Shown in pieces: positions 48,501 to 60,102 of a stretch of 64,000 bases of DNA (position 1 is its first letter; each line of letters starts with the position of its first letter). This DNA is from Pseudanabaena sp. PCC 7367 (lineage in GTDB: Bacteria; Cyanobacteriota; Cyanobacteriia; Pseudanabaenales; Pseudanabaenaceae), in NCBI RefSeq assembly GCF_000317065.1, contig NC_019701.1, positions 1,426,001-1,490,000 of the forward strand. Reading direction: 5' to 3'. The notes beneath the pieces are model-generated. The model worked only from the letters and a program-made list of their open reading frames with translations, was not told where the DNA came from and made no database searches. A program made the translations under genes and the position numbers.

Positions 48501-51500
48501 TTATTTAGCGCTGGCCAGGGCTTCACCCTTTAGCAATTTCTGGGAAGCACTGAGCAACTCTTCTTCTAGATAGGGCTTGGTGAAGTAACCCTTGGCTCCC
48601 AATTGGACAGCGGTTTGACGGTGGCGATCGGCACCCCGAGAGGTCAGCATTGCCACCGGGATCTTGTTGAGATTGGCATCCTTTTGAATTCGGGAAAGGA
48701 AATCCAAGCCATCCATTCTGGGCATCTCAATGTCGCAGAAAATCAGATCGCAAGGCAGGCCAGCACGTAGCTTTTCCCAGGCATCCTGACCATCTCTAGC
48801 TTGCTCCACCCGGTAGCCAACCTTGGTAAAGGTGAGAGATAGTAGCTCGCGCACCGTAATCGAGTCGTCCACAATAAGTACAGTGGGTTCGGTTTTTTCC
48901 GATTGCTCTGGCTTGATTTCGATCGTTTGCATTTCGCGGCGGGGCTTGAGGCGACCACTGGCAATATCGAACAGCTCTAGCACATTGGCGATCGACATGA
49001 CTCGGCCATCCCCCAACACGGTTGCCCCGGCAACACCCGCTGGCTTGGGAATTGGCCCTTCGAGTTGTTTGATTACAATCTCGCTTTCGCCCAGGAATTG
49101 ATCGACCTGCAAGGCGAGATAATTACCCTCATTACGCAGAATAATAATTGAAATTACATCATCGTCTTGCTTGCCATAAATATTACTACGGCTGATGTGG
49201 CGGGTGTAGCTGAGTAGATTAGCCAAGGGCTGGAAGGGCAGAATCGTATCACGCCAGGGCAAACAGGGCTGACCTTTGCTATTGTTCTGAATTTGGCTCT
49301 GGGGAATTTCAATCATATCTTCAAAGCCATCGACCGGGAAGGCAATCCTGGTGCGATCGCTAATGCAGAACATCGCTTTGGAAATGCTCAATGTTAGGGG
49401 CAGGCGAATCGTAAAGGTAGTGCCCTTGCCCACGATCGATTCAGTGTAAACAGAACCACGAATTTCATCCAGGCTACTCTTGACCACATCCATACCCACA
49501 CCCCGACCTCGGAACTCATCGGCCTGGGAGGCGGTACTAAAACCAGCCTCAAATAGCAAATCATATACCTCATCATCGCTGAGGCGAGTAATCTCCGAGT
49601 TCGATCGCATCCCTTTTTTGACCGCCGCCTTTTTCACCTTGCCCACATCAATACCAGCCCCATCATCACTGACAGAGATGACAGTTTGATTACCCTGGTG
49701 ATAGGCTCTGACGGTGATTTTACCCTTCACTGACTTACCGGATGATTGGCGGGTGGCCGGGTCTTCAAGGCCGTGGTCGATCGCATTGTTAACCAGGTGG
49801 TTCATTGGATCAAACAAATGTTCCAGGATCGCCTTATCAATTAAGGTCTCGCGGCCAATAATTTCAATTTCAGCCTGTTTACCAGTTTTAATGGAGCGAT
49901 CTCTAACCCCACGGGGCAAGCGATCGGCAATTTGGGCAAAGGGCACCATGCGCGATTGCTTGAGATCGTCTTGGATCTGGGTAGTAATCGTGCCTAGCTG
50001 GCGAGAGACCTGCTCAGTCTCATCTACCACATATTCAATATCTGAGGCCGACTCACGCACCCGGACGATCAGCTCGATAATTTCCTGGGACAAGCTGTAG
50101 AACGGACTGCTAAAGCGATCCATTTCTAGGGCATCAAAGTCTTGGCCACCCGTATTAATGCCATCAATATTGGCTTGCTGAATGCTGAAAAGGCGATCCC
50201 GCGAACTTTGGAGCTGGTTACGACTGGCCAGGAGGGAGGTTTCGAGCAACGATCGATCGTAGAGATCGCGCATCCGCTGCGCCACATCACTGAGCTGTTG
50301 CACCTGATGAAGCAAATTACTAATAAACTGCTGCAATCTCTCCTGGTCAGCTTCGAGCAGGTTTCGATTGACCACCAGTTCCCCAACCAGGTTATTTAAA
50401 CTGTCAAGATATTTGACATCAACCCGCATGGTTTTATCCATGATCCTGGATGGGCGGGTACTGGGTGAAAATTTCTTTTTGGCTCGTTGGGTACTTGGGG
50501 CAGCCTCAGGACCATAGGTATCGATCAACAGCGCTTCGAGATCACCAAAGTCATCCTCGATCGGTTTGGCAGATTGGTTGCCATTGGCAGGAGCATCGGT
50601 AGCAGATTCGGCACCACCACCAATTAGCGCTTCCAGCTCATCAAAGCTAGAACCGGACGAGGCAGCATTGCTACTATCGCTGGGCTCAGAAAAATCAGCA
50701 GAGGCCACATCACCTAGCATTGCCTCTAATTCATCAAAGGCATCGCCTGAACTAGCTGAAGAACTATTTGGGCTAGCTGACGGAGTTGATTCGCTGGCAA
50801 ACCCAAAGTTTAGATCCTGGGCTTCGAGATCGAGGGCAGCGATCGTAGCTTCGGGGTCAAATTCGTCATCTACTTCTGATTGGTCTACTTCTGATTGGTC
50901 TTCTGATTGATTACTCAACTCCGCCGAATTGCCATCTCCCGCAAAGAAATCAACCAAATTATCGATCGTACTATCGGGGGAAGGCAATTGAGTTCCAAAT
51001 CCTTGTACCTGAGTGACATCCCCATTTGAAGTATCGTCAGCAGCTAAACCATCAGCAGGCTGTTCGGATGCTGCCAAATCATCTAGATTATCACCAGCAA
51101 ATGCCGCGATCTGGGTCTCAATGTCATCATCTTCATTCCCCTGCTCATCCTGATTATCCTGTTCAGTCAATGTAGATAGCTCAGCCAACTCTGCTTCACT
51201 CGCCGCTGAGCTTACCTGTTGCGCTGGTTCAGGCTGTTCAGCTTGATCAAAGAAATCAGCCAGATCGCCTAAATCGCTTTCTGCTACGGCCAACTGCTCT
51301 GCATCAATCTTATTGGTGTTAGTGTTAGTTGCCTCATCATCACTGACATCACTGACATCACTGATATCACTGATATCACTGGAATTTTCTGAGACAGGCA
51401 CTTCCTCTGTGATTAACTGATCGATGTCATTTAGAGCATCTTGCTCTTGCTCACCTTGATCCGCATCAGCAAAAAAGTTGGCTAACCCTAGATCTTCATC

Positions 51501-53840
51501 TCCAGTTGGCTCGATCGCTGCTAGCTCCAAATCATCGGGTGAAGCGGTTGAAGTTAGCTCAGCATCTTCCGCCTCTGACTGTTGCTCGATTTCATCTGTG
51601 TTATTTGCTTCATTATTTGCTTCTGTGTCAGCGACATCCTGGGTAACATGATCAGCAACTAGCTCTGCTTCTCCATCCGCAGCAAACGGATCGAGTTCAT
51701 TGTCATCAATATCAAAGCCTAAATCTTCTAAAGCCACTTGATCTTCATTAGCTTTAGCAGTTTCAGTGTCTTGAGCGGCAACTAATTCTGGATCATCCCC
51801 TACCGATATACCTGGTGCGTCTGATTTTGGCTCTGATTCTGGTACATCTGCATCTGATGTCAACAAATCCAGATCACCTTCTACCTTGAACGGATCATCA
51901 TTGCCGTCGGCAACATTTTGATCGATTTGAGCGGTTTGAGCGATCGCAGCCTGATCAGTAATGCTCTCGCCATCGGTTAATTCTAATTCCAGATCACGAT
52001 CTAGATCACTGGTTGAGGCACCGATCGGTTCGGGTGATTCTGCACCGGTAACATCAGCTAGATCTGATTGGTCAAAAAGCTCGGCTAAGGCCTCTTCAGA
52101 CTGCTCGGCAGTTTGCTCTAATCCTGCCAGATCGCTTAAATCATCTAAATCAGTAGCTTCAGTAGCTATTGATTCTGGTTGCTCTGGTTCTGGCTGATCG
52201 GGTTGAGCTTCATCGCTCGAGTCGATCGAATCAATTAAATCAGTTAAATCATCATCTATTGTACTGGAATCACTCTCAGGAGTGGCTGGCGTAGCTGGAT
52301 CTAAATCTGGATCTGGATCTAGATCTAGCCCCAATTCAGCGACAAGATCATCACTGCTGTATTCCGGCTCATTATCACCAAACAGCTCGGCGATCGCTGC
52401 ATCGCTGCTACCATTATTTTCACTGGTATTTTCACTGGTGTGCTCACTGGAGTCAGCATTGCTCGATTGGCCATCGCTATCATCACTGAATAGATCGGCA
52501 AAATCTTCCTGCTCATGCAATGCCTGTGATGAAGCATCTGCAAATAGATTTTGATTAGCACTAATATCAGCCCAGGCTGATTCAATATCAACTTCTTCGT
52601 TTTCAAATAGGCTGGCCAAACTGCTCAGCTCATTGGCTCCAACTTCAGGGCCATCAAGTGATAGCAAGTCTTCTTCTGGATTTAAGGCATCTAAATCATC
52701 ACTGCCTCCGTCAGCTTCATCTGCCTTCGGTGGCTCGGTTGCAGCCAGAGCTGCCTCGATCGTTAGCTCCCCATCATCGGCGAACAAATCAGCAACAGCA
52801 GCAGCAGAGCCGGCTTCGTCTGACTGGTTTGAGCTATTGGCAGCGGCTTCGGCTTCCTCGGAGGTAATTTGGGCAAATACTTCTGAGATATCATCGGCTT
52901 GCTCTTGCGCATCAGCAGTACCAGCGGTATCTATCGCATCATCTGAGATATCGGCAATATCAGCTGCTATGGCGATCGCTGGTTCGTCCTCTACCTCTAC
53001 CGCTTCAGGCAATAGCTCCTGCAATCTGGCCGTCACACTAATTTCCGCTTCACGTTGCGCCAATACTAGATCTTGCCCCTGCTTTAATTCTTTGATTACA
53101 ACGGGAGCCAAGACCCGATAGCCATTATCAGGATTAGCGATCGCCTGCTTGGTGGCAGCCAACAAATTACACCAATTAGTAAAACTATATCGATCGCCCA
53201 CCTCTATTAACTGATCGCAGGTCGTTAATAATTGGGAGCGACCCGCCGGCTCGTCTTCATGCTTGAAGCAACGCAACATATCACGCAGATAGCCGGTCAC
53301 GGGCTCTTTGAACGCAGTCGTAAAGTCTGGTTCTGGTTCTGCTTCAGGCTCTGGTTCTGCAGCCGCTGCCGTCGCCTGATCTGCACTCATCGCCACGGGG
53401 ACACCACCCGACTCGATCACCAGCTCATTGAGATAGTCGGTTAGCTGCCGGAAAATTGGTTCGACTTCAGCCAGCGCCGCTTCTGAGCGGTTATCAGAGA
53501 TGCGTAGATTGATTTCTAGATCCTCTAATAGTTCCTGGAGGCGATCGAAGCCAGCCAGCAGTAGGCTTTTCAACTTTTCATCAACTTGAATCGCAGCATT
53601 ATCACGCAGCACTTTGAAATAATCTTCCAGGCGATGGGAAATGTGCTGCACACTACCCACACCCAGCATGGCTGCCCCACCCTTAATCGAATGAGCGGCA
53701 CGGAAGACTTCGTTCACCATCTCCGCATCGTTCAAAGTCTCTTGCAGGTTCAGTACCCCTTGCTCGATCGTATGCAAGTGATCCTTTGCTTCTTCTATGA
53801 AGTAACCAAGTATTCTTTGCTGCTGTTGTTCTGGATTCAT
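48501..53840 (-). CDS. CheA-like hybrid histidine kinase with giant acidic linker (PilL/HmpE type)
   Basis: A 1779-residue protein. An Hpt domain with AAHSIKGGAA (His50) is followed by a helical domain without His (about 175-280) and an acidic, low-complexity linker (281-1120). Then come dimerisation helices (1140-1300), a HATPase domain with N-box NHLVNNAIDHG (1347-1357), G1 DDGAGI (1392) and G2 GRGVGMDVV (1445), a CheW-like domain (1485-1630), and a receiver with Asp1703 in FCDIEMPRMDG and Lys1755. It should phosphorylate the CheY and PatA-type regulators of this locus and steer type IV pilus motility. The linker contains many repeated Leu/Phe-Phe acidic motifs (see findings). A linker of this size is far above that of classical CheA. 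Confidence 0.93.
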   Translation of the reverse strand: MNPEQQQQRILGYFIEEAKDHLHTIEQGVLNLQETLNDAEMVNEVFRAAHSIKGGAAMLGVGSVQHISHRLEDYFKVLRDNAAIQVDEKLKSLLLAGFDRLQELLEDLEINLRISDNRSEAALAEVEPIFRQLTDYLNELVIESGGVPVAMSADQATAAAAEPEPEAEPEPDFTTAFKEPVTGYLRDMLRCFKHEDEPAGRSQLLTTCDQLIEVGDRYSFTNWCNLLAATKQAIANPDNGYRVLAPVVIKELKQGQDLVLAQREAEISVTARLQELLPEAVEVEDEPAIAIAADIADISDDAIDTAGTADAQEQADDISEVFAQITSEEAEAAANSSNQSDEAGSAAAVADLFADDGELTIEAALAATEPPKADEADGGSDDLDALNPEEDLLSLDGPEVGANELSSLASLFENEEVDIESAWADISANQNLFADASSQALHEQEDFADLFSDDSDGQSSNADSSEHTSENTSENNGSSDAAIAELFGDNEPEYSSDDLVAELGLDLDPDPDLDPATPATPESDSSTIDDDLTDLIDSIDSSDEAQPDQPEPEQPESIATEATDLDDLSDLAGLEQTAEQSEEALAELFDQSDLADVTGAESPEPIGASTSDLDRDLELELTDGESITDQAAIAQTAQIDQNVADGNDDPFKVEGDLDLLTSDADVPESEPKSDAPGISVGDDPELVAAQDTETAKANEDQVALEDLGFDIDDNELDPFAADGEAELVADHVTQDVADTEANNEANNTDEIEQQSEAEDAELTSTASPDDLELAAIEPTGDEDLGLANFFADADQGEQEQDALNDIDQLITEEVPVSENSSDISDISDVSDVSDDEATNTNTNKIDAEQLAVAESDLGDLADFFDQAEQPEPAQQVSSAASEAELAELSTLTEQDNQDEQGNEDDDIETQIAAFAGDNLDDLAASEQPADGLAADDTSNGDVTQVQGFGTQLPSPDSTIDNLVDFFAGDGNSAELSNQSEDQSEVDQSEVDDEFDPEATIAALDLEAQDLNFGFASESTPSASPNSSSASSGDAFDELEAMLGDVASADFSEPSDSSNAASSGSSFDELEALIGGGAESATDAPANGNQSAKPIEDDFGDLEALLIDTYGPEAAPSTQRAKKKFSPSTRPSRIMDKTMRVDVKYLDSLNNLVGELVVNRNLLEADQERLQQFISNLLHQVQQLSDVAQRMRDLYDRSLLETSLLASRNQLQSSRDRLFSIQQANIDGINTGGQDFDALEMDRFSSPFYSLSQEIIELIVRVRESASDIEYVVDETEQVSRQLGTITTQIQDDLKQSRMVPFAQIADRLPRGVRDRSIKTGKQAEIEIIGRETLIDKAILEHLFDPMNHLVNNAIDHGLEDPATRQSSGKSVKGKITVRAYHQGNQTVISVSDDGAGIDVGKVKKAAVKKGMRSNSEITRLSDDEVYDLLFEAGFSTASQADEFRGRGVGMDVVKSSLDEIRGSVYTESIVGKGTTFTIRLPLTLSISKAMFCISDRTRIAFPVDGFEDMIEIPQSQIQNNSKGQPCLPWRDTILPFQPLANLLSYTRHISRSNIYGKQDDDVISIIILRNEGNYLALQVDQFLGESEIVIKQLEGPIPKPAGVAGATVLGDGRVMSIANVLELFDIASGRLKPRREMQTIEIKPEQSEKTEPTVLIVDDSITVRELLSLTFTKVGYRVEQARDGQDAWEKLRAGLPCDLIFCDIEMPRMDGLDFLSRIQKDANLNKIPVAMLTSRGADRHRQTAVQLGAKGYFTKPYLEEELLSASQKLLKGEALASAK

Positions 53841-54082: not shown

Positions 54083-56587
54083 TTAGGCGCGCCCAGCCCC
54101 GGACTTATCTGATTCAACTCGGAAACGTTCCACCGATTCTTGCAAGCCACGGGCAACCCCCACCAGATTTTGGAGTGAGGCCGACACCCGTTGTGATTCT
54201 TGCGATGTTTCTTGGGCGGTCAACTCAACCGATTGCATAACCTGTGCCACAGTACGGGACGTTTCGGTTTGCCGGATCGTATCTTCCGTAATCGATCGCA
54301 CCAGTTCGTCAATCCGCTGCGATACCTGAATAATATCATTTAGCGACTGTCTGGCCTGTTCAGCCCGTTTGGTACCATCGATTACCTGCTGCGTACCCAA
54401 GTCCATTGCTTGCTGCACCGTACCAGTCTCACTCTGGATTTGCAACACAATTTGTTCAATTTCCTTGGATGCTTTGGCGGCACGATCGGCTAGCTGCCGC
54501 ACCTCATCAGCCACGATCGCAAAGCCCCGTCCGGCATCTCCTGCCCTGGCCGCCTCAATACTAGCATTAAGCGCCAGCAAGTTGGTACGGGAGGCAATCT
54601 GGGAAATCAAACCCACAATCTTAGAAATTTCCTGCGATGATTCACCCAGCCGTTTCACCTTACGGGTAGTTTCTGCCACTGTTTCTCGAATGTCCAGAAT
54701 CCCAGCCATCGTCAGTTCCACTGCCTCGCCGCCTTTAAGGGCAGTTTGCGAAGCCAGTTGAGCTACATCCTCAGCTTCACGGGCGCTATCTGCCACCCGC
54801 TGAATCGATTCGGTCATCATTTGCACCGAGTTTAGAGTCACACTCAGTTCTTCTGCTTGTCTGAGCGCATCAGACGACAAACTACGGGCAAAACTTTCAT
54901 TTTCTTTGGCCGCCTCACTCACCTGCTTGGCAGCGGTTTTCACCTGTTGCACAATCTCGCGCAGGTTTTGAATGGTGAGATTAAACGAGTCAGCTACGGC
55001 TCCTAGTACATCAGCGGTCACCTCGGCCTGCACGGTCAAGTCACCTCGCGCCGCACCTTCTACATCATCCAGGAGGCGGATCACCTGGCGTTGGAGGTCT
55101 TCCTTGGCTTGTTCTTGCTCTTCTGCTTTGCGCTGTGCTTCGGTGGTGCTGGCAATGATCGTTTGAATCATTTGGTTAAACGTCGAAGACAGCTTGCCAA
55201 ATTCATCATCGGCATAAACCGCAGCCCTGGGATTCATCTCCCCATGCATCACCGACTCAAACTGGGCTTGCAAGTTATCGCTCGATCGCTTCACCTGACG
55301 GGTAGTCCGCGAGCCTGCAAACAAGGCCATTCCCGCTCCACCAAGAAAGGCCGCCCCTGCCATGGCAACTCCGCCAAGTTGAATACTTTGCTTGGCTTCC
55401 TTCTCAACAGGGATGCGTGCCACTGAAATGTTAAACACAAAAGCTGCAGCGATCGCTGCCACACCACCGGAAACAATTGCTGTAATCACATTTTTCTGGG
55501 GCAGTGACATGTTATCGAAGAACGAAAGCATGCCCTGATCGCTTGCTTCTATGCTGCTGCTGGAGGATTCACTCACCGATGGCTTAGAAGTACCCAGCGG
55601 TGCACCACTACTAAGCCCAAACAACTCAGCTTCTGAATCTGGCAACGATTGGCCAAACCCACCACTCGGATCGCCCTGCCCCATCAATGGCTCCGCCCCC
55701 AGGGAGCCAGACATGCCAAAGTCAACCGCTGAGGCTGAGGTATTAAAACCACTGGACTCACCACCAGTCACCATTTGGGTCGCATCAGATTCATCGAATG
55801 AGCCAGGGAAGGTTGCGGCTAGATCGCCAATTTCGTCAAAGTCATCAAATTCATCAATAAATTCATCACCGCCAATGCCTGTGCCTGGATCAAACATCTC
55901 AGCGGCGTTATTACCAGCCATCTGTGTGTCAGCGGCATAGTCAAAGTTTTCCATATCATCGGCGATATTGATGTCATCAAAGTTGAAATCATCACCATCA
56001 CCAAGTTGGTCAAATTCAGCTACATCATTAAAGTCGCTGGGGGGCGAGGCATTGTCTGGCGGAGCCATGCCACCCGCTTGTAGGTTAGTGCCCCGATTGG
56101 CCTGGAGGTTGGTGGCCACCTGGGGCATTTGCTGGGCATTATCGAAGGCAAACGTATCATCAAAGTCCATGCCGCTGAAGTTGAAGTCATCGCCAGGTGT
56201 GGCAAATGGACTGCTGTACTCCTCGTCTGGTTGGGACTGGTCTTCGCTGGCTAAGTTATATTCGTTGTTGTCGTCACCATAATCAGCATTTACTTCGCCT
56301 GTTGCCGATTGATTGAGCCGCTCGCTGGCTGTGGACATACAAATGCTAGCGTTTTCAACTAGCTGCGTATCTTCAGTTAGATTCAGCACAGCTTGATACT
56401 CTGCGATCGCATCTTGATATTGTTCCAACACCAGATTGACATGGCCATGCAGCAATCGATAGGTGGGCTCATCTGGACATGCGCCGACTAGCTGCTGTGA
56501 CAGATCCATGGCACGCTCATAGTCACCTTGCATATATGCTAGTGAGGCTCGATCGTAGTCCTTCTGTTGTTGAGTGCTAGATGCCAT
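54083..56587 (-). CDS. Methyl-accepting chemotaxis protein (PilJ/HmpD type) with TPR-like N terminus
   Basis: An 834-residue protein. Residues 10-70 form two TPR-like helix pairs ([20 protein letters not shown]). An acidic, Asp/Phe-rich linker extends to about 350. Two membrane helices follow at about 363-385 and 399-424, then a HAMP region. The MCP signalling hairpin has its conserved tip [20 protein letters not shown] in the region 649-699. There is no GAF or phytochrome-type domain, so this is not the PixJ/TaxD photoreceptor. It most resembles the PilJ-like HmpD. AGGAG lies about seven bases before the ATG. The linker contains AELFG, which also occurs in the CheA linker. The sensory input is unknown. 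Confidence 0.9.
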
Positions 56588-56650: not shown

Positions 56651-57181
56651 CTAAGATGCCCAACGCGCCGATCGTGATATGTTTACATGATCTAAAAGTC
56701 TCAATGACATCTCGTCTGGCTCGATCAGCCACTCACCTTTCAAAAAAGGAGCCATACTGTCAGGACTATTTCTGGAAACTTTTAATTTATCAGGATCTAG
56801 CCAGGCCATTACACCAATCTTTTCAATTGCCAGCCCCAATAGTAGCCCCTGGTCTTCGATCGCAATAATAGAAACTTCTGAGCGATCGGTATTGACTGGT
56901 GCTGATTCACCTAAAAACTGACCGAGATCGCCAACCCAAACCACCCTGCCTCTTATATTAATAGTACCCAATATTAGCGGGGAAACATTGGGCATTGGAT
57001 TTATGCGATCGGGTGGATATTCGATCACCTCTTTGATCCCCGTTGCTGGCAGGGCAAATTCCAGCCCTGAGGCCGTAAAGAACCGTAAGTGCAACTCACC
57101 CTCAGGTGCACCAATTTCCTCTTGGAACTCAGGGTCTTGGCCTGGGCTATTCCCAAGTAAAAAGTCTGGATTTCCGACCAT
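56651..57181 (-). CDS. CheW-type coupling protein (PilI/HmpC)
   Basis: The protein has 176 residues. A CheW SH3-like domain begins near LRFFTASGLEFALPATGIKE and continues through PMPNVSPLILGTINIRGRVV with WVGDLGQFLG, the usual core motifs. It links the MCP to the CheA kinase. The gene lies 63 bases upstream of the MCP gene on the same strand, and these two are likely one transcript. The first 25 residues are polar and unassigned. Confidence 0.9.
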   Translation of the reverse strand: MVGNPDFLLGNSPGQDPEFQEEIGAPEGELHLRFFTASGLEFALPATGIKEVIEYPPDRINPMPNVSPLILGTINIRGRVVWVGDLGQFLGESAPVNTDRSEVSIIAIEDQGLLLGLAIEKIGVMAWLDPDKLKVSRNSPDSMAPFLKGEWLIEPDEMSLRLLDHVNISRSARWAS

Positions 57182-57776: not shown

Positions 57777-58145
57777 CTATTGATTGCGCAAGAGTTGCTT
57801 TACCGTTCCGACCAGTTCTTGGGGTTGAAATGGCTTGGCAATATAAGCATCAGCGCCTTGGCGCATCCCCCAATAGCGATCGAATTCTTCACCCTTGGAA
57901 GAACACATCACCACAGGCACCAGTTGGGTTTCAGGATCTTGTTTGAGTCTGCGGCATACCTCATAACCATTCATGCGTGGCATCACAATATCGAGCACCA
58001 CCAGATCTGGTCGATCGTTGGCTACTTGCGATAATGCTTCAACTCCATCCCCAGCACTGACCACCCTTAAACCGCTATCGCGGAGTAGGTTGGTGATCAT
58101 TTGCCGCTGCGTAATACTATCTTCAACTACCAGAACCATATTCAT
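57777..58145 (-). CDS. CheY-type response regulator (PilH/HmpB), copy 1
   Basis: A 122-residue stand-alone receiver with acidic residues Glu8 and Asp9 (VVEDS), phosphorylated Asp52 in VVLDIVMPRMNG, the Ser/Thr position in MCSSKGEE and Lys104 in AKPFQPQE. AAGGAAAC lies about six bases before the ATG. It shares about 100 of 122 positions with the second copy upstream and is nearly identical from residue 77 onward. The CheA of the locus should phosphorylate it. In type IV pilus systems PilH-type regulators act as output or as phosphate sink. Confidence 0.93.
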   Translation of the reverse strand: MNMVLVVEDSITQRQMITNLLRDSGLRVVSAGDGVEALSQVANDRPDLVVLDIVMPRMNGYEVCRRLKQDPETQLVPVVMCSSKGEEFDRYWGMRQGADAYIAKPFQPQELVGTVKQLLRNQ

Positions 58146-58518: not shown

Positions 58519-58887
58519 CTAGGTTTTGCGCAGGAGTTGTTTGACCGTGCCCACCAGCTCTTGGGGTTGAAATGGCTTAGCAATATATGCATCAGCACCT
58601 TGGCGCATCCCCCAATAGCGATCGAATTCTTCGCCCTTAGTCGAGCACATTACCACCGGCACTTCCTGGGTCTTGGGATCAGTTTTGAGGCGGCGGCATA
58701 ACTCATAGCCATTCATGCGCGGCATCACAATATCGAGCACTACCAAGTCAGGGCAGCTCCCCGATATTTGCTCTAGGGCTTCAACCCCATCGATCGCTGC
58801 ACTCACACTTAAACCGCTATCTCTAAGTAAAGCCGTTATCATTTCCCGTTGCGGGGGGCTATCCTCAACAACCAAAACTTTATTCAT
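58519..58887 (-). CDS. CheY-type response regulator (PilH/HmpB), copy 2
   Basis: A 122-residue receiver of the same length as copy 1, with Asp52 (VVLDIVMPRMNG) and Lys104 conserved. It differs from copy 1 at about 22 positions, nearly all in the first 76 residues; VEDSPPQRE replaces VEDSITQRQ around the acidic site. The gene lies 53 bases upstream of... the direction of transcription puts it 53 bases after the PatA-type gene, likely in one operon with it. Two regulators may divide output and sink roles. Confidence 0.93.
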   Translation of the reverse strand: MNKVLVVEDSPPQREMITALLRDSGLSVSAAIDGVEALEQISGSCPDLVVLDIVMPRMNGYELCRRLKTDPKTQEVPVVMCSTKGEEFDRYWGMRQGADAYIAKPFQPQELVGTVKQLLRKT

Positions 58888-58941: not shown

Positions 58942-60102
58942 CTAGCTACTGCTAATTCCTAGTATGTCCAGGTTGCTCCCATCATTTTCGTGGTAGGACT
59001 CAAAAGCAGCGATCCCCTCTGAATTGATATGGCTATTGGCCAAATATTTTTCCACCATCATCAATAACTCCTTCTCACCAAAGGGCTTAGTTAAATACTC
59101 AGTTGCACCAACCATGCGCGCCTTTACTCGATCGATAAAGCCATCCTTGCCTGTTAGCATAATAATCGGCTTTCGGGCAAAGTAGCTAGACTTTCTAAAC
59201 ATGCCGCATAATTCGTAGCCATCTAAATCGGGCATAGCAATGTCGCAAAGGATTAAATCTGGTTTGAGCTGAAATACTAAGCTAAGCGCCTTAATCGGGT
59301 TGGAGATCGCCGTTACCTGGTAGCCATTGTTATGAAGAATATACTCTACCGCCCGGCAAATTGTGACACTATCATCGATACAAATTATCCGCAATGCTTC
59401 ATGTCTGGGTTTGGTAGTTACTGGCAAAGCGAGAGGAGCCATTGCTACCGCCCCACTTAAGATCCCTGTATACATATTTTTGGCGATCGCAAAGATACTC
59501 TGGTTACCATAACGCGCCAGTTGGCGGAGCGAGGTCTTGCCATTCACCCATTGATTCAGTTTGGGCAAGGCACCATCAATGGCGATCGCTGGGCATTGAT
59601 CGGGCGATTGGATGTAGGGATAGAACCGATACCAAGCCTGTAGCTCGATCGTAATTTGCTTGAGCAGGGGTGAAAGCTTGATGGTGGTGAGCTGTGGCGC
59701 TAAGGAAGCACCGAGTTCAAACACAAAATTACCCTCATGTAAGCTGAGAATATCAAAGAGCACCTCAACAATCATGGCTCGGATAATTGCTTTGGCCTGC
59801 TTGGGGGAAAGCACCTGAGACTCTAGTAAAGCCCAAATCTGGCCATATTCAATCACATTGATGCCCAATTTGGCCGTTAAAACCTGTTCCAGGGCGCTGT
59901 CGAGATTAAGTCCATGCAGGTAATCACGCAGGCGATTTAAGTTACTGGTTGGGTCGGTTGCATAGGTGATTTCGCCATTCACAAAAAACACAAACCACGA
60001 TCGCCCCGTGTTGGATTCGATCAATAATTCACCAGTACGCTGCCCCAGCTCAATTAGCCTGAGAATACTGGTCACATCTATTTCCTTCAGCGTCCCCTGC
60101 AT
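58942..60102 (-). CDS. PatA-type response regulator (PilG/HmpA)
   Basis: The protein has 386 residues. An N-terminal PatA/DUF4388 domain (MQGTLKEIDVTSILRLIELG, then SWFVFFVNGEITYA) leads to a helical middle region. A C-terminal receiver domain begins at LRIICIDDSVTICR, with Asp287 in LILCDIAMPDLDG and Lys339 in YLTKPFGE. This arrangement defines the PatA family of cyanobacteria, which is the first regulator of pil/pix/hmp chemotaxis-like loci. The PatA domain is thought to contact the pilus motor machinery. It is the promoter-proximal gene of the locus. Confidence 0.92.
   Translation of the reverse strand: MQGTLKEIDVTSILRLIELGQRTGELLIESNTGRSWFVFFVNGEITYATDPTSNLNRLRDYLHGLNLDSALEQVLTAKLGINVIEYGQIWALLESQVLSPKQAKAIIRAMIVEVLFDILSLHEGNFVFELGASLAPQLTTIKLSPLLKQITIELQAWYRFYPYIQSPDQCPAIAIDGALPKLNQWVNGKTSLRQLARYGNQSIFAIAKNMYTGILSGAVAMAPLALPVTTKPRHEALRIICIDDSVTICRAVEYILHNNGYQVTAISNPIKALSLVFQLKPDLILCDIAMPDLDGYELCGMFRKSSYFARKPIIMLTGKDGFIDRVKARMVGATEYLTKPFGEKELLMMVEKYLANSHINSEGIAAFESYHENDGSNLDILGISSS

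Follow-up and report, generated by a model that had tools for sequence, protein, structure and literature searches.

The giant CheA-type kinase encoded in the analysed DNA (a stretch of 64,000 nucleotides of Pseudanabaena sp. PCC 7367, hereafter the window) carries an acidic linker in which three conserved, non-random classes of short motifs were distinguished: (i) scattered LxDLF[EG] motifs, (ii) up to five copies of FxDLExLL, located within about 130 residues of the P3 domain, and (iii) a single near-invariant box, GPEVGxAELNSLADLFEGE...W, which includes the motif at residue 410. Judged from its sequence, the linker is, most likely, not filler but a docking strip with multiple sockets. The best explanation, to which we give a probability of about 0.6, is that it would tether the phosphotransfer domain to the kinase core and bear an array of short motifs for docking along its length, acting in the steps proposed below.

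The gene (48501..53840; minus strand, as for all features below unless stated otherwise) encodes a HmpE/Tax3-type CheA kinase of 1779 aa, composed of an Hpt domain, a second helical bundle, the giant acidic linker, the P3-P4-P5 domains and a receiver domain (REC). Close relatives of the window belong to Pseudanabaena. Pfam analysis recognized the Hpt, P3, HATPase, CheW-like and receiver domains: the Hpt (P1) domain (residues 10-106; 53523..53813) matched PF01627 (E=1.3e-15) and, by Foldseek, the fold of CheA P1 structures, while the P3 dimerisation, P4 ATPase and P5 CheW-like domains occupy residues 1136-1625 (48966..50435) and the C-terminal REC residues 1654-1765 (48546..48881). The Hpt, P3, P4 and P5 domains are shared with the canonical five-domain CheA, but P2 is absent: no P2/CheY-binding domain was found by Pfam, and AlphaFold2 (AF2) models the second N-terminal domain as a bundle made of helices only. 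This four-helix bundle (residues 173-275; 53016..53324; pLDDT about 96-98), which is kept in most orthologues, has no Pfam match, no HxxKG phospho-site and a fold other than that of P2. The disordered linker (residues 271-1121; 50478..53030) contains 28% D+E and 2% K+R, has a net charge of -227 and shows low pLDDT at its sampled ends. No known domain was detected in it with Pfam or NCBIfam, Pfam giving weak chance matches only. Long antisense ORFs (52633-53121 and 50566-50910, plus strand) lie opposite this low-complexity region and are probably by-products of its composition.

Upstream of CheA, the same operon encodes an HmpD-like MCP (54083..56587), an HmpC-like CheW (56651..57181; Pfam), two CheY proteins (57777..58145, HmpB-like, and 58519..58887; both Pfam) and an HmpA-like PATAN(DUF4388)-REC response regulator (58942..60102; Pfam). 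The MCP consists of an N-terminal TPR, a disordered segment, a HAMP domain and the MCP signalling domain, and its disordered segment has conserved spots of its own (DEFDxFDD and ELFG) within a fast-changing background. The MCP linker was considered as a second home of LxxLF, and none was present in the four MCP linkers examined. The two CheY proteins are identical at 100 of 122 residues, and since 77 of the 78 orthologous loci with a detected CheY carry a single copy, the second one looks like a duplication in this lineage. No hmpF-like gene adjoins the HmpA-like gene, upstream of which inspection of the locus revealed ribonuclease HII-like and thioredoxin-like ORFs; hmpF may be located elsewhere in the genome.

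A preliminary description, made from the letters of the window, had listed, for CheA residues 281-1120 (exactly positions 53000-50481), nine motifs of the form [DENS][LF]F. All nine are present, starting at residues 351, 410, 431, 449, 485, 587, 788, 862 and 964, and three of the residue numbers originally given (486, 588 and 789) were off by one. Every one of the nine LF/FF dipeptides of the window linker falls within such a motif. The three FDELEAL-like motifs of the same description lie where it had placed them, at 1035, 1066 and 1098, and follow the pattern F[DG][DE]LEA[LM][LI]: FDELEAMLG (1035-1043; 50712..50738), FDELEALIG (1066-1074; 50619..50645) and FGDLEALLI (1098-1106; 50523..50549), the last of which adjoins P3. 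These frequencies are far above those of shuffled linker sequence, the comparison that had been suggested for them: [DENS][LF]F was seen 9 times against 1.28 expected (none of 5000 shuffles reached 9), the extended form [LIVMF]x[DENSAG][LF]F 8 times against 0.36, and F[DEGA][DE]LEx[LM][LIM] 3 times against 0.00. The motifs of the window did not arise by recent duplication of DNA: Tandem Repeats Finder reported micro-repeats only, and tandem duplication was rejected as their source.

The orthologue group was delimited by a score gap (1e-206 or lower for all but one partial carrier, against about 1e-140 for the best paralogues) and yielded 112 full linkers, of which 34 remained as a non-redundant set once close relatives had been removed. 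All gapped residue triplets were enumerated in these 34 linkers and compared with local shuffles. LxxLF ranked first (116 occurrences against 20.6 expected, about 5-fold enrichment, 34/34 linkers) and was closely followed by F.DL, F..L...L and F..L..L; the motif of the preliminary description was thus re-found without being sought, and it can be refined to LxDLF plus a subsequent E or G and acidic residues. After removal of the box, LxxLF was still found 87 times against 20.6 expected, while LF/FF dipeptides by themselves were enriched 1.3-fold. The FxDLExLL motif, with the consensus DEF[DA]DLEALLGD, exceeds shuffles about 190-fold, occurs in 29 of the 34 linkers and is limited to the final 37-131 residues preceding P3 (10-90% range). 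All hydrophobic spots had previously been treated as one motif; the orthologues resolve them into the three classes given above, which have in common a hydrophobic-x-x-[LF]-[LF] core with acidic flanks.

Most LF/FF positions proved to be kept among orthologues, with variable spacing and with linkers ranging from about 290 to 1745 aa. In 22 Pseudanabaena linkers, the F and L of FxDLExLL are conserved at 100% and 96%, and those of LxDLF at 70% and 67%, against a background of 51% for other F, 46% for other L and 34% for other residues. With the window protein as reference, nearly all of these 22 linkers retain the motifs at 351, 410, 485 and 964. These motifs include VADLFADD of the LxDLF class (349-356; 52773..52796; F kept in 21/22), IAELFGDN of the LxxLF class (483-490; 52371..52394; F kept in 22/22) and a conserved TIDxLxDFF element, TIDNLVDFFAGDG (958-970; 50931..50969). 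The motif at 449, FADLFSDD (447-454; 52479..52502), lies just past the box and is conserved as FADLL or FSDLL, i.e., with LL. Two LxDFF copies, LANFFADAD (786-794; 51459..51485) and LADFFDQAE (860-868; 51237..51263), are ambiguous in the alignment. Neither NLFADA (431-436; 52533..52550) nor LAELFDQS (585-592; 52065..52088), a lineage-specific copy, is kept.

The linkers of 21 other CheA proteins of the same genomes were used as a paralogue control. FxDLExLL was not found in any of the 21, and LxxLF occurred 6 times against 4.5 expected when one outlier was left out. The outlier (L187) carries tandem IPLDDLFQSEIDANEPV-like units, which are an independent expansion of LDDLF by tandem duplication of DNA. 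The paralogous linkers show an approximately threefold enrichment of the broader pattern [LIVMF]x[DENS][LF]F, so that other cyanobacterial CheAs have a milder version of the same theme.

The box of the window protein, GPEVGANELSSLASLFENEEVDIESAW (397-423; 52572..52652), was delimited from the orthologue alignments. It is a long element with the look of a specific binding peptide; its residues P, G, E and A are invariant and its W is near-invariant. A strict pattern recovered it in 95 of the 112 orthologues, and several of the others bear a recognizable degenerate form; a loose score designed for such forms was dropped, as 8 of 112 shuffled linkers passed it. A profile search of 194 cyanobacterial genomes found exactly one copy in each of 43, including that of the window, solely in genomes with the orthologous CheA and solely within that protein. 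The orthologous CheA itself is present once per genome in 72 of the 194, and 43 of these 72 have the box. The HetR family (Pfam PF03574), which we take as a proxy for filamentous growth, is encoded by 40 of the 43 box carriers and, among the 29 genomes with the orthologous CheA but no box, by 3, an association that is inflated and confounded by shared ancestry. Two of the three HetR-less box carriers are the window's genome and a genome of the same family, and the box is almost confined to HetR-bearing and Pseudanabaena-type filaments. As a specific sequence marker, it sets apart the CheA orthologues that belong to HetR-bearing genomes of the filament type from most of the others.

Box carriers have a longer CheA reading frame (median 1774 aa) than box-less genomes (median 1159 aa). 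Among 24 box-less orthologues examined, most contain FxDLExLL and few contain more than one LxxLF; most of the short-linker, box-less proteins retain FxDLExLL. The operon is usually intact in box carriers, and many box-less genomes (L197-L216 and L218-L237) have no MCP of this type beside the short-linker orthologous CheA. The TPR of the MCP was rejected as a filament-specific partner of the box, being present also in those box-less genomes that keep the operon. A search for a relative of the box among solved structures gave a chance-level likeness only, to the N-terminus of TRPV4 (E 0.026).

Structure prediction was performed with AF2 for CheA residues 1-475, using 41 orthologues (pTM 0.41), and for residues 1015-1779. 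The N-terminal model contains two confident helical bundles (Hpt and 173-275) and is of low confidence in most of the remainder. The box region is predicted to be helical above this disordered background (helices 402-413 and 419-439, intermediate confidence; pLDDT of the box block about 79). The C-terminal model is poor (mean pLDDT 62.8, pTM 0.35), and in it the third FxDLExLL motif, FGDLEALL, forms a low-confidence helix (1098-1109, pLDDT about 56). No confident docking was seen in these single-chain models, which were built from shallow alignments and without an inter-domain error map; docking of the FDELEAL motifs on CheA's own REC is neither supported nor excluded by the poor C-terminal model.

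Multivalent docking of partners such as CheW, the CheY copies or the MCP, or clustering of the array, had already been suggested in the preliminary description. The excess of motifs over shuffles and their conservation in orthologues lend good support to multivalent docking as such; against it stands that two of the twelve motifs, at 431 and 587, are not conserved. In the mechanism that we propose, the linker would be a long, negatively charged, disordered tether joining the phosphotransfer domain to the kinase core, and each motif would fold into a short amphipathic helix on binding a groove. FxDLExLL and LxDLF might then, with less certainty, recruit receiver partners (the CheY copies, PATAN-REC or CheA's own REC) to the vicinity of Hpt and so replace P2, a role suggested by their resemblance to the EIDALL CheY-binding peptide of FliM/FliY. 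Considering the missing P2, this likeness and the presence of the motifs in unlike cyanobacterial lineages, our best single guess for the partner is a receiver domain or the kinase core. For the box, the best guess is a localisation peptide of filamentous cyanobacteria that would place or hold the array at the septa, by the logic of the CheA-LID of Vibrio (PMC5706961) and in line with the hmp literature on septal rings (PMC12288463). A more specific, two-part form of the proposal, in which an old FxDLExLL/LxDLF array would bind several response regulators simultaneously as a substitute for P2 and the box would tie the chemosensory array to the type IV pilus ring of the septum, is speculative and, in our estimate, unlikely to hold in full. 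If it were true, a new peptide within a chemotaxis kinase would have been part of the way in which filament gliding evolved.

Several other explanations of the motifs were weighed against the docking tether. The one with the best prospects, although we still rate it well below an even chance, is that all classes are variants of a single receiver-binding peptide, raising the local concentration of CheY and PATAN-REC near Hpt in place of P2. The absence of P2 and the hydrophobic-x-x-[LF]-[LF] core with acidic flanks, common to all classes and to EIDALL (PMC9126983), are in agreement with such a role, and the occurrence of LxDLF in some paralogous CheA linkers, including the one with tandem units, is what one would expect if all CheA systems used the same type of partner. 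However, the invariant P, G, E and A and the near-invariant W of the box would be needless in a generic receiver peptide, the box follows HetR-bearing taxa and not the presence of this CheA system, and the AF2 model, albeit of low quality, shows no docking on CheA's own REC. In an intramolecular clamp, the motifs would attach to the Hpt, the second bundle or the kinase core of CheA itself and keep the kinase inactive for as long as they are not displaced; such a clamp appears improbable. It would account for the retention of FxDLExLL close before P3 in most short-linker orthologues and is compatible with the predicted helicity of the box and the segment that follows it, but neither AF2 model contains a confident docking (within the limits of both models given above).

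Another view, in which the LF/FF spots act as hydrophobic stickers without specificity, set in an acidic spacer, and drive self-association or condensation of the array, seems to us quite improbable. Aromatic spots are indeed strung along a low-complexity acidic chain, and some copies (431 and 587) turn over, but the number of motifs is not correlated with the length of the linker (Spearman 0.23 for LxxLF and 0.20 for FxDLExLL, both not significant), and the strong negative charge should resist self-association. The strict positional grammar (D before and E or G after LF; FxDLExLL only near P3), together with the near-invariant box, argues instead for specific binding. Finally, an acidic, disordered chain containing Leu and Phe could yield such motifs by chance, as the weak enrichment of LF/FF dipeptides alone might suggest. 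We consider the likelihood of this to be negligible, given the failure of all 5000 shuffles to reach the observed count, the enrichment of LxxLF and FxDLExLL in orthologues, the paralogue control and the residue conservation; an origin of the motifs by chance or composition is refuted by these data. The docking tether remains our preferred reading. The conserved linker peptides offer short, mutable targets for two questions: how Hmp sets the end at which a filament cell bears its pili, and how response regulators dock without P2.

The window gene is the CheA of a hmp/tax3-type operon and probably steers movement on surfaces, its orthology with HmpE resting on gene order. In Nostoc and Leptolyngbya, hmpA-E encode, in order, PATAN-REC, CheY, CheW, MCP and CheA (PMC10581220), and a review places the hmp systems, together with tax3 of Synechocystis, among the type-1 chemotaxis-like systems that control type IV pili (PMC12288463). 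The window locus shows this hmpA-E order (PMC10581220, PMC12288463), but has two CheY genes instead of one. Septal rings contain the type IV pilus motor proteins of hmp systems, and the dynamic protein HmpF is under the control of Hmp (PMC12288463). We found no description of the linker motifs in the open-access literature. Long unstructured stretches in P2-less CheAs are reported in a survey of CheA architectures (PMC10782961), in which we found no conserved linker motifs described and whose main text does not use the word disorder; compared with the proteins presented there, the window linker is set apart by its length of about 850 aa, by its conserved motif classes and by its position behind a second helical bundle. 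The EIDALL sequence at the N-terminus of FliM/FliY is the binding site of CheY-P (PMC9126983). DLEALL resembles it by eye; no FliM match was obtained with NCBIfam or Pfam. What the two appear to share is a core of [ED]-[IL]-[DE]-A-L-L, a short amphipathic helix of acidic character within a flexible stretch, a likeness that is weak evidence because ELEALL-type acidic helices are common; the window motifs differ in being repeated, in lying inside CheA and in having an invariant F two positions ahead. The CheA-LID of Vibrio, which is bound by ParP, through its CheW-like AIF domain, for polar placement of the array (PMC5706961), is a CheA segment restricted to those lineages that have a particular organisation of the cell or a particular partner system, and the same apparently holds for the box.
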